Part shown: one piece after another, positions 11,619 through 34,327 of the stretch
How positions within the stretch are numbered: the first letter of the stretch is position 1
Layout of the letters: each line of letters begins with the position of its first letter
DNA from: Lachnospiraceae bacterium 3-1
GTDB lineage: Bacteria > Bacillota > Clostridia > Lachnospirales > Lachnospiraceae
Reading direction: 5' to 3'
NCBI GenBank assembly: GCA_000403255.2
Contig: KE159597.1
Location: 1-64,000, forward strand
Length of the DNA stretch: 64,000 bases
Notes under the pieces: generated by a model
Databases searched by the model: none
What the model was told of the DNA's origin: nothing
The model's input: only the letters and a program-made list of their open reading frames with translations
Program-made: the position numbers and the translations under genes

Positions 11619-12481
11619 AACTGGATCGGGTAAGCAAGCATTATAAACAGAAAATTGTGGCGGACCGCCTGGAATTTACATTTCAAAAAGGGATTTACGG
11701 ACTGTTGGGGGAAAATGGCGCTGGGAAAACCACACTGTTACGCATGATTGTGGGGGTATTGAAGCCCACTGCTGGAGAGATCTTATGCAACCAGCGGGAA
11801 ATTGGGAAACTGGGGGGAGCCTATCGCATGAAGCTTGGGTATCTGCCTCAGAAATTCGGTTATTATCCTAATTTTACTGTTTGGCGTTATTTGGAGTATT
11901 TGACGGAATTAAAGGCGGTGCCGCTGGAGACAGCAGGGGACAGGATGGAAAAGCTTTTGGAACAGACTGGACTTTTGCATGTGAAAACAGAGAAAATTAA
12001 GACTCTTTCTGGAGGTATGGTGCGTCGGCTGGGGATTGCACAGGCCTTGTTAAATGATCCAGAGATATTAATTTTGGACGAGCCTACCGCAGGGCTTGAT
12101 CCCAAGGAGCGTATTCGGTTCCGAAATTTACTTGGTTCCCTGGGGAGAGACAGGATTGTGCTTCTATCCTCCCATATTGTGTCAGATATTGAATTTATTG
12201 CGGATGAAATCCTGATTATGAAGTCAGGAAAATTTATCGAAACAGGAAATCAAGAAAAAATGTTGAAAACGGTAGAGGGAAAAGTGTGGGAATGCTTGGA
12301 AATGCCAGAGAATTTGGAGGGCCTCAACCGCAAGTTTCCAGTGAGCAGTATGAAAAATCTGAAAAATGGCAAAGTTGAAGTAAGGATTGTTTCAGAGATT
12401 CGGCCTTCGGAGCATGCGGTGCAGGCTGCCCCTAATCTGGAGGATGTGTACTTATATCAAACAGGAGGGAGGAAAGGATGA
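11606..12481 (+). CDS. ABC transporter ATP-binding protein
   Basis: A 291-residue ATPase that powers an ABC-2 type exporter. Walker A is GENGAGKTT (about 36-44), the Q-loop lies in LPQKFGYYP, the signature is LSGGMVRRLGIAQALL, Walker B is ILILDEPTAGLDP, and the switch His lies in LLSSHIVSDIE. The C-terminal 70 residues form the extra domain seen in bacitracin- and lantibiotic-type exporter ATPases. It overlaps the previous gene by 13 bp and the permease by 4 bp (ATGA), so the three are translationally coupled. The substrate cannot be inferred. Confidence 0.93.
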   Translation: MLELKLDRVSKHYKQKIVADRLEFTFQKGIYGLLGENGAGKTTLLRMIVGVLKPTAGEILCNQREIGKLGGAYRMKLGYLPQKFGYYPNFTVWRYLEYLTELKAVPLETAGDRMEKLLEQTGLLHVKTEKIKTLSGGMVRRLGIAQALLNDPEILILDEPTAGLDPKERIRFRNLLGSLGRDRIVLLSSHIVSDIEFIADEILIMKSGKFIETGNQEKMLKTVEGKVWECLEMPENLEGLNRKFPVSSMKNLKNGKVEVRIVSEIRPSEHAVQAAPNLEDVYLYQTGGRKG

Positions 12482-13623
12482 GACTTTGGAAAATGGAATT
12501 TTATAAAATTACTGCAAGGCCGATGCTGAACCTAGGATTTTTGCTGCTGGTAGGTTTCTTTCTGTTGGTATTCTGGCAGGAAGCAGACGGAACTAGAACA
12601 GAAATTGACGGAAAGGTGTATCAGGGATTAGAAGCGGTGAAAAAAGACCGTGAGCTTGCGAAGGAATATGAAGGTATTTTTACCATGAAAAAGGCAGAGG
12701 AGATTGTGGAGCGTTTTGGATTTTCCGGTTATGTTGGAAATGAAAAAGAAGAATTTCGCAAAGTTCGGGAAGGAAATTTCTGCAGTCGGTTTGTGACAGA
12801 TAAAATGACAGATTTTTTACAGACAGGAGAGCGGCCGCCTGGCTTTTCTAAGGGGGAGGCATGGGAAAATTATGGAAAAAGGTATGTGGAGGAGAATATT
12901 TCCTTCGGGTATACCCAAGGATGGGAAAGTCTGCAAAAGGTATGGTATATGGCAATGATGTCCCTGCATATATGGCTGGTGCTTATGGTAGCTCCCGTAT
13001 TTTCAGAGGAATACAGTCGGAATGTAACAGGGGTACTATTGTCTACCACTTTGGGAAAATCCAGGGGTATATTTAGAAAAATAGAAGCAGCTATGGGATT
13101 TGGCATTTTGGCATACGTATTGCTCTGTGTGTTGCTTTTTGGAATAACGGTTGTAATTTACGGTGGAGATGGACTTTGGGCAAGCGCTGGAATGAATAGT
13201 ATTTTTCTTATGTTTTCGGGAAGAGGAAATTGGAGTATAGCATTTTTTTTCTTACTTTTGTTTTTGTTAGGAATGGCGGCCGTTTTGTTAAATGTGGGTA
13301 TTACCCTGTTTGTATCCTCAAAATGCAAGGGGCCAGTATCAGCAGTCACAGTTGGGGTACTGCTTTATTTACTTCCTTTTGGCCTCAATCAGATTTTGTT
13401 TGATTTATTTTTGGATATGGGGGTTGCAGGCAGTCAATTGGGATGGAGGCTGATGGATGTGATACGGATGTTCTGTTTTTCCATGCCTATGTATTTGTCT
13501 CATCCTGATATTTTTTATCTCCCATTACGTTGGGCAAGGTATATTCCTCTGATTGTAGTTGGTGTAATGATAGGGTGCATTTTGCGCGGATATAAGAATT
13601 ACAGAGAGTATGAGGGAATTTAA
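12478..13623 (+). CDS. ABC-2 type transporter permease
   Basis: A 381-residue membrane subunit partnering the ATPase just upstream (4-bp ATGA overlap). It has one N-terminal membrane segment (about 17-35), an extracytoplasmic domain of about 120 residues, then five or six hydrophobic segments. MMSLHIWLVLMVAPVFSEEYSR matches the characteristic FxxEyxrgt loop of ABC-2 permeases. The stop codon at 13621-13623 is one base away from the terminus of a 701-bp palindrome, so transcripts of this operon run straight into it. Confidence 0.88.
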   Translation: MRLWKMEFYKITARPMLNLGFLLLVGFFLLVFWQEADGTRTEIDGKVYQGLEAVKKDRELAKEYEGIFTMKKAEEIVERFGFSGYVGNEKEEFRKVREGNFCSRFVTDKMTDFLQTGERPPGFSKGEAWENYGKRYVEENISFGYTQGWESLQKVWYMAMMSLHIWLVLMVAPVFSEEYSRNVTGVLLSTTLGKSRGIFRKIEAAMGFGILAYVLLCVLLFGITVVIYGGDGLWASAGMNSIFLMFSGRGNWSIAFFFLLLFLLGMAAVLLNVGITLFVSSKCKGPVSAVTVGVLLYLLPFGLNQILFDLFLDMGVAGSQLGWRLMDVIRMFCFSMPMYLSHPDIFYLPLRWARYIPLIVVGVMIGCILRGYKNYREYEGI

Positions 13624-13624
13624 T

Positions 13625-14325
13625 GTAACAGTTCAGCCCTTTCAGCTCTGAAATAGAGCTTTATTCAAAGGATTTTCATACTGACAGTATAAAAATATGG
13701 ATGGGTATTTCCATATTTGAAACAAATTTTCCTGCTTTCACTTCCAAGAAAGGAAACATTCGGTGCATTTCGTGTATTTCCTGCTTCCAGGGATGGAAGA
13801 AGTGTATTCCCTCCAATTTCACTGTTAGAGGTTTTCCGCCGCGTGGGAAATTATCAAGGGGCGGGGCTGTTTTTCTTCACGGACAGCCCTTCTGGTTTTC
13901 CTAACAGCGCCAAAAGCCCCTTCGATTTGGGTATGCCGCTGAAACTCAGGACTGCCCCATAGAATAGAAAAGACTCAAAAGGCTTGGCGCAGCAGTCCTT
14001 CAAACAGGTCAGCCCGGCATACCCATTGGGGCTTCTCTGCCGCTGGCAAGGAAAACATACGAAGGACTTCCGAATCTCAGAAAAACAGCCCCGCCCCTCG
14101 ATATCCTCCCACCGGCTGGTAAACCGAGTTTGAATTGGAGGGAATTAATAGCATCCTTCCATCCCTGGAACTGGAAATACTAGAAATCCAGCCGCGTTTC
14201 CTTGTGGAAGTAAAAGCAGGAAAATTTGTAAAAAACAATAGAAGCTCCCATCCATATTTTTATTCTTTCATCGAAGAATCCTTTCAATAAAGCAATGTAG
14301 AAAGCTGAAAGGGCTGAACTGTTAC
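13625..14325. repeat. 701-bp imperfect palindrome (ladder-like long hairpin element)
   Basis: The two ends are a perfect 23-bp inverted repeat beginning GTAACAGTTCAGCCC (13625-13647 / 14303-14325). Moving inward, further paired blocks alternate with unpaired blocks of nearly equal length on the two sides. The main pairs are 13658-13674/14277-14293, 13689-13705/14247-14263 (17 of 17), 13722-13746/14205-14229 (24 of 25), 13785-13799/14156-14170 (15 of 15), 13806-13818/14133-14145, 13854-13876/14079-14101 (22 of 23), 13929-13938/14015-14024 and 13948-13955/13992-13999. The apical loop is about 36 nt. No convincing gene lies inside. Flanks AATTTAAT and AATTCAAG match at 6 of 8 positions and could be a worn 8-bp target duplication. 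Confidence 0.9.
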
Positions 14326-14418
14326 AATTCAAGAAAAGCGGCAAAAATAGCTAGATTTTTTTCTGTAAGATGTTTATAATGAATATATACTATGATTAAT
14401 TGTGCAGGAGGGCAGAAA

Positions 14419-20606: not shown

Positions 20607-20678
20607 TGGCCCATCGCCAAACGGTAAGGCAACGGACTCTGACTCCGTCATTTCAAGGTTCGAATCCTTGTGGGCCAG
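20607..20678 (+). tRNA. tRNA-Gln (anticodon CTG)
   Basis: 72 nt. The acceptor stem TGGCCCA pairs with TGGGCCA, followed by discriminator G. The D arm is CGCC/GGC(A) around AAACGGTAA. The anticodon stem ACGGA/TCCGT holds loop CTCTGAC, so the anticodon is CTG. The T arm is CAAGG-TTCGAAT-CCTTG. CCA is not encoded. It has its own promoter and terminator. Gln-accepting tRNAs reading CAG alone are secondary to the TTG type, so another copy should exist elsewhere. Confidence 0.95.
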
Positions 20679-34212: not shown

Positions 34213-34228
34213 TAGCACTGAAACAGAA

Positions 34229-34307
34229 CGCAGAGGGACTGCATTGCAGTTGAGAAGGTTAAAACCTGACTCTTTGAACCTGTCAGTTAATACTGTCGTA
34301 GGGAGCG
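34229..34307 (+). promoter_or_regulatory. TPP riboswitch (THI element)
   Basis: The conserved core is present in order: TTGAGA, AGGTTAAAACCT, TTTGAACCTGTCAGTTAATACTG, and CGTAGGGAGCG; P1 closes with CGC/GCG. These match the THI box elements CTGAGA, GAACCTGAT-TGGATAAT and CGTAGGGA. A terminator hairpin follows at 34328. Binding of thiamine pyrophosphate should cause termination before thiC. Confidence 0.95.
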
Positions 34308-34327
34308 GATGATATGTGACATATTTT

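Follow-up and report, generated by a model that had tools for sequence, protein, structure and literature searches.

A 701-bp palindromic mobile unit with IS66-type ends and traces of copying between its arms in Lachnospiraceae bacterium 3-1

Insertion sequences of the IS66 family begin with GTAA, and the arms of fold-back transposons are composed of tandem repeats. The authors of ISDge4 assigned this element to ISBst12, a group within the IS66 family, and the part of its description that deals with its termini gives the ends GTAACTGCTCAGCA/GTGACTACTCAGCA together with an 8-bp repeat (PMC12898284). As set out in passages of two reports on quasipalindromes, template switching between inverted repeats yields both homogenization of the arms and inversion of the spacer (PMC8604942, PMC8794818). 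The element considered here lies in the window, the stretch of 64,000 nucleotides of Lachnospiraceae bacterium 3-1 DNA that was analysed. It is probably a non-autonomous fold-back element, that is, a long MITE, with ends of the IS66-type ISBst12 group, in which matched blocks are homogenized by template switching, diverged blocks escape this process, and copies collapse from the centre.

The sequence-only reading of this DNA had reported a palindrome of alternating matched and unmatched blocks, and the structure is real: its coordinates are exact, its arms and the order of its blocks are as claimed, and its terminal repeat is perfect over 23 bp within the element, or 24 bp with the flanking T/A (Table 1). 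The element also starts, as stated, 1 nt past the stop codon of a 381-aa permease gene. The near-equal length of unpaired blocks that face each other proves to be a general property, with 5' and 3' sizes correlated across 58 internal loops in seven sequences (Spearman 0.39, p 0.003) and differing by 2.0 nt on average. Among the block sizes offered as examples, 10/9 appears as such in the predicted fold, whereas 14/13 and 16/17 are split; the supposed 36-nt apical loop is replaced by pairing that, in the predicted fold, continues further inwards. Folding of positions 13600-14350 as RNA gives -361 kcal/mol versus a mean of -197 kcal/mol for 20 shuffles (z -23). The long inverted arms constitute most of the element, as in fold-back transposons. 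Arms built of tandem repeats were not found, the sole family of direct repeats in the element being a short one with two copies of 13 nt. The absence of a gene inside is likewise borne out: the internal open reading frames (ORFs) encode 67 and 81 aa, none is longer than 81 aa, and the longest ORFs of seven related elements vary in size, strand, and place; a hidden gene was rejected on this ground.

Table 1. Features of the 701-bp element and its immediate flanks, in positions of the window
Feature	Position	Strand	Remarks
Mobile hairpin unit, 701 bp	13625..14325		Begins GTAACAGTTCAGCCC and ends in its inverse; one of seven full-length genome copies
Left terminal inverted repeat, IS66/ISBst12-type GTAAC.GTTCAG	13625..13647	+	
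Right terminal inverted repeat	14303..14325	-	
AT-rich paired block TGACAGTATAAAAATATGGATGGG	13682..13705	+	Partner 14247-14270; adjacent to the inverted apical stretch found in e18 and e19
25-bp paired block (exchange block)	13722..13746	+	Partner 14205-14229
Partner of the 25-bp exchange block	14205..14229	-	
Unpaired stretch CTGAAACTC	13939..13947	+	Invariant in 7 sequences from 6 species
Left target-site duplication AATTTAAT	13617..13624	.	Includes the stop codon of the upstream permease; 6/8 identical to the right copy
Right target-site duplication AATTCAAG	14326..14333	.	

A correction is that the element is not unique: in the host genome (5.08 Mb in 27 contigs), it gives 103 BLAST matches. 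Once matches had been merged and flanks read, with one-ended fragments and short matches left out, 24 copies were compared. Seven of these are full-length (693-701 bp, one of them without 8 bp at one end) and 95.7-100% identical to the window copy, while the 17 shortened copies measure 67-591 bp. Copies open with GTAAC and close with the inverse, and the adjacent base outside them varies, so the ends of the element are fixed. It shares with MITEs the properties of being short, non-coding, multicopy, and bounded by terminal repeats and target duplications, although 701 bp is long for this class.

Of the 23 copies with both ends readable, 16 are flanked by perfect 8-bp target duplications; the imperfect ones agree at 7/8 positions in two copies, 6/8 in three (the window copy included), 5/8 in one, and 0/8 in one. 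The earlier account of the bases beside the window copy is amended accordingly, as they form a degenerate target duplication of 8 bp (AATTTAAT/AATTCAAG). An empty site exists in the congener G021, in which the permease ortholog (73% identical) runs into the conserved downstream leader and the element is absent. G024, another congener, has a small hairpin (L251; ends like ATAACAGTTCAGAG/CTCTGAACTGTTAT) directly after the ortholog of the same permease (12478-13623 in the window), in the place where the window has the 701-bp element.

Both the GTAAC..TTCAG-type terminal inverted repeats and the 8-bp target duplications are of the kind that ISBst12-group members of the IS66 family have, so the statement that no described class fits this element was wrong. 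An IS66-type element of 1813 bp in the congener G026 (L116) has GTAACTGTTCAGAACC ends, 8/8 duplications, and a single ORF, and the transposase of this element is 487-496 aa long. Related ends also lie near IS66-type proteins or their remnants in other genomes: G023 and G025 have both ends without a matching duplication, and G015 has one end. An IS66-type transposase is absent from the 701-bp element, in which no ORF exceeds 81 aa and none is consistent between species; the element is therefore not itself an insertion sequence. Of the outcome that was to speak against a structural role, namely that the element is only an IS derivative, half is borne out by the ends and duplications. The element is best called a non-autonomous mobile unit with ISBst12-type ends. 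A G026-like transposase is present in 5/29 genomes (E <= 1e-20), and none was detected at this threshold in the host genome or in G002, G005, G010, G012, and G017, some of these genomes being incomplete. Since no ISBst12-like transposase was found in these six genomes, it is the ends that point to the driver, an ISBst12-group transposase that would move the unit in trans and duplicate 8 bp of the target. An IS66 parent with identical ends in the host genome was rejected, as both IS66 kinds with located ends, partial copies aside, have ends other than those of the hairpin. Two IS66 elements of the host genome (L078 and L079, 99.7% over 3009 bp) carry TGTAAGCGATTAATAAC ends, unlike those of the hairpin. 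In addition, G002, G005, and G017 contain other elements of 163-281 bp (L087 and L091-L096) with the same kind of ends (GTAACAGTTCAGCCA/CCC) and different interiors. Their flanks, inspected by eye, show 8/8 duplications in 3/7 cases and 6-7/8 in the others, and they constitute further non-autonomous families sharing these ends.

When 61 genomes were searched with the window copy, six matched, and all belong to the same genus; a search with a congener's copy finds matches in 10 of the 29 genomes of the genus. Both counts include the own genome. Full-length relatives from five species measure 702 bp (G002), 700 and 698 bp (G005), 701 bp (G010), 694 bp (G012), and 698 bp (G017). They are 60-66% identical to the window copy and 59-66% to the host-genome copies, a 777-bp copy being left out of this comparison. 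The latter, found in G005 (L044:1258-2034), contains about 80 bp extra with small hairpins of its own in the right arm. Thirteen copies that were folded reach -330 to -386 kcal/mol on either strand. G026 has five regions with copies that lack clean ends; one of these folds at -151 kcal/mol and the others at -292 to -337 kcal/mol. Five places in G026 (L193-L197) match, at 87% identity, an inner stretch of 39 bp (positions 493-531 in L033, a copy from G005); the threshold that finds this stretch yields nothing there for the remainder of the element. The stretch is a possible functional core. A 460-bp member with GTAACCATTCAGCC ends (L198 and L199) has the same flanking bases in G018 and G028 and is apparently one insertion inherited by both. 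No match to the element was found in plasmid and phage records; in viral contigs, the exact 24-base end did not occur, and none of 12 stretches fitting a core pattern was similar to any element, so that spread via plasmids or phages was set aside. Within genome contigs, this pattern yielded 36 stretches, of which 10 are similar, all in Lachnospiraceae or Eubacterium MAGs and apparently from genomes already found. No published description of the element was found in a search whose scope lies outside most subscription journals.

Pairing in the matched blocks has been conserved over evolutionary time, as the sequence-only reading had supposed, and other species show it in corresponding positions. 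For seven sequences from six species, 221 pairs were predicted from both strands and evaluated with no phylogeny. Watson-Crick combinations fill 90.2% of their cells versus 75.1% in column shuffles (maximum 78.1%), and 101 of the 221 pairs show at least two Watson-Crick types, whereas partners shifted by 1-4 columns are Watson-Crick in 25-39% of cells and yield 17-31 pairs with at least two types. RNAalifold applied to nine sequences gives 213 pairs, 90 of them changed on both sides in at least one sequence. The paired state has a mean correlation of 0.535 between species, to which common ancestry contributes, as against at most 0.141 for 99 shifted versions. The companion suggestion, that pairing is actively avoided in the loops, is not shown, and failed homogenization in these stretches would give the same look. 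Invariant sites amount to 27% (unpaired) versus 47% (paired) in the inner part and to 14% versus 36% in the outer part, and column shuffles produce runs as long as the invariant nine at CTGAAACTC (mean 5.7, maximum 11).

Copies within the host genome bear direct traces of sequence passing from one arm to the other. In copy e31, the outer blocks of the right arm stand on the left and the left-arm version stands on the right, with the switch located inside the 25-bp block (98-122/581-605 in element positions). The same switch is present in e11, of which the left arm was read, and in e33, of which the right arm was read, on the single arm examined in each, and these three copies may share one flip. 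Copies e18 and e19 have an apical stretch, 20 bases long or more, whose sequence is present in full-length arms solely in reverse-complemented form. Linked complementary changes affect 4 of 11 doubly polymorphic partner pairs versus 11 of 1247 non-partner combinations (Fisher p 4e-6; arm-swapped e31 and e33 were left out of all polymorphism counts, and e26 was also left out of this test). Of these four linked pairs, two are each confined to a single copy, and the remaining two lie next to each other and may represent one event. Together, the arm swaps and the private complementary double changes show that sequence is exchanged between the arms.

Once inserted, the copies decay. Polymorphic sites make up 72/490 of the paired and 31/211 of the unpaired positions, an equal rate from which it follows that inserted copies are not individually guarded. 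Variable pairs number 55 of 245, of which 7 have two Watson-Crick types, and one-sided changes outnumber double ones, implying that homogenization is slow or takes place mainly in the transposing lineage. Scattered decay of paired blocks, the other outcome that was to count against a structural role, is thus seen within this genome, where the changes are mostly one-sided. The centre is missing in all 17 shortened copies. In raw counts, 15 of 18 deletion junctions share 1-8 bases and 10 share at least four. Among 22 copies compared for their nearest relatives (e26 and e33 left out), five couples have about the same breakpoints, and in all five neither member is the other's nearest relative; moreover, one copy of 118 bp agrees with a full-length copy at 118/118 sites. 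Both observations are better explained if collapse occurred repeatedly in place than if shortened forms transposed. A possible exception is the pair e18 and e19, which share one complex junction, differ at 10 of 160 sites, and may derive from one shortened copy that moved. Lack of a hairpin nuclease as the enabling condition for such palindromes was rejected in view of SbcCD-like genes in the host genome (G000): the SbcD cut-off is passed there, as in 25/29 genomes overall, and a 997-aa SbcC-like ORF adjoins the host SbcD, although the SbcC cut-off itself is passed in none of the 29 genomes. The hairpins therefore persist despite these genes.

The explanation judged probable above would account for the ladder as follows. 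The two arms would copy each other during DNA replication, which would allow the long hairpin to persist. Where the arms match, the nascent strand may switch template inside the hairpin, such that a mutation in one arm is either copied to the other or reversed, and blocks may flip between arms. Blocks past a divergence threshold would fail to anneal, evade correction, and drift, for the most part at nearly constant length, and the coexistence of corrected and escaping blocks would generate alternating perfect and unmatched rungs. Apart from this, decay of the inserted copies would be neutral, with the centre removed by deletions that often fall at short direct repeats.

A more doubtful explanation is that the hairpin itself is selected, in that spread or survival requires the unit to fold, be it as DNA (in a cruciform or a single-stranded hairpin) or as an RNA read from one side or the other, with selection fixing compensatory changes among transposing copies. 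The between-species correlation of the paired state is in line with this, as is a length of 694-702 bp in six species, the 777-bp copy with its insertion apart. In all 12 comparisons of G000, G002, and G010 with G017, G012, and G005, changes on both sides that preserve Watson-Crick pairing equal or exceed one-sided changes; within these groups, however, one-sided changes are more numerous in 7 of 9 comparisons, equal in one, and fewer in one. The equal polymorphism of paired and unpaired sites within the genome also speaks against selection on the hairpin, as do the private double changes, which look like one event in a single copy, and the existence of shortened copies with perfect target duplications. 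Plain homogenization, on the other hand, does not require the conservation between species of either the length of about 700 bp or parts of the inner core, and the unexplained constancy of this length in six species, together with the 39-bp core still recognizable in G026, leaves room for selection on the hairpin or on the core. It seems unlikely that the element represents a class of bacterial transposable units in which a 700-bp ladder-like DNA hairpin with a conserved inner core is the selected object and must fold as DNA to spread, for example as a single strand or by guarding itself from hairpin nucleases. If this were true, covariation that is usually taken as RNA structure would be a record of DNA folding.

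Of the two possibilities raised by the sequence-only reading, a structured RNA or a hairpin DNA element, the latter has held up. Folding alone favours wobbles, so that only pairs predicted on both strands offer a fair test: in single-strand folds, the ratio between the wobble of the folded strand and the opposite one of the two mispair types (G·T or A·C) is 68:51 and 67:45 for the hairpin and 222:6 for RNase P RNA, and it reaches 121:18 for RNase P RNA folded on the wrong strand. On pairs common to both strands, the hairpin has 40 G·T and 45 A·C mispairs, equally common types that give no sign of one-strand RNA selection, compared with 12 G·T versus 4 A·C in the RNase P control, which offers only 16 such cells from sequences that are much more alike (91%). 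This control consists of 18 of 23 congener sequences, five having been dropped for truncation or odd length; all 23 score below the gathering score of the model and are presumably RNase P RNA of the other class. Covariation is present in the element and wobble asymmetry is absent overall, a comparison limited by the small size of the control on pairs of this kind. The innermost part of the hairpin has 13 A·C and 3 G·T mispairs, as an RNA from the minus strand would give; both strands of the element fold about equally well, with alifold energies of -296.6 and -306.2. At the gathering threshold, Rfam has no match in the element and reports for the window only a TPP riboswitch (34222-34321, +) and a tRNA (20607-20678), both elsewhere; below the threshold, the element and six related loci give only hits far under the thresholds of the families concerned (best E 0.49). 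A large structured non-coding RNA made from one strand and carried by the transposable unit, for which the strong fold, the covariation, and conserved unpaired stretches such as CTGAAACTC could be cited, is therefore improbable, as it is opposed by the equal mispair counts, the similar folding of both strands, the Rfam results, and the lower conservation of unpaired sites relative to paired ones. The pairing fits DNA-level matching better than a one-strand RNA, and it may also agree with an RNA read from both sides.

The element is a naturally occurring example of extensive compensatory changes between paired bases, normally regarded as proof of RNA structure, that show no overall wobble asymmetry and are accompanied by direct traces of copying from one arm to the other. 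As such, it is a warning for covariation-based RNA discovery in repeats, for which a comparison of G·U and A·C counts on pairs predicted from both strands is suggested as a simple check. The copies also furnish multi-copy material on the upkeep, flipping, and loss of long palindromes in a bacterium with SbcCD-like genes.

Among known systems, the ISBst12 group of IS66, represented by the termini described for ISDge4 and by the G026 element (L116), resembles the hairpin element in its GTAAC..TTCAG-type terminal inverted repeats and 8-bp target duplications. The hairpin element differs in lacking a transposase gene, in consisting almost entirely of inverted repeat, and in having no matching autonomous copy among those found in its own genome. 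Bacterial MITEs such as Correia, Chunjie, QMITE, and others, as portrayed in the relevant parts of a review, likewise have no gene, bear terminal repeats and target duplications, and exist in many copies and size variants (PMC10969869). The hairpin element, by comparison, is about 700 bp long, is palindromic from end to end, and has kept its length and fold across species; a word search of the text of that review returned neither IS66 nor hairpin (PMC10969869). The fold-back transposon Tm1 shares very long inverted arms and a non-autonomous majority, but its arms comprise varying numbers of a short repeated motif (PMC3169594), whereas the rungs of the hairpin element differ from one another in sequence, and its host is a bacterium. 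Template switching at quasipalindromes accounts, in the cases presented in the passages cited at the outset, for arm homogenization and spacer inversion, and both signatures are present in the hairpin element; those cases concern short repeats, whereas a mobile hairpin of 701 bp appears to be maintained in this way here (PMC8604942, PMC8794818). The original observation is therefore correct and unusual: a very long, end-to-end palindromic, non-autonomous element of IS66 type with clear traces of copying from arm to arm.
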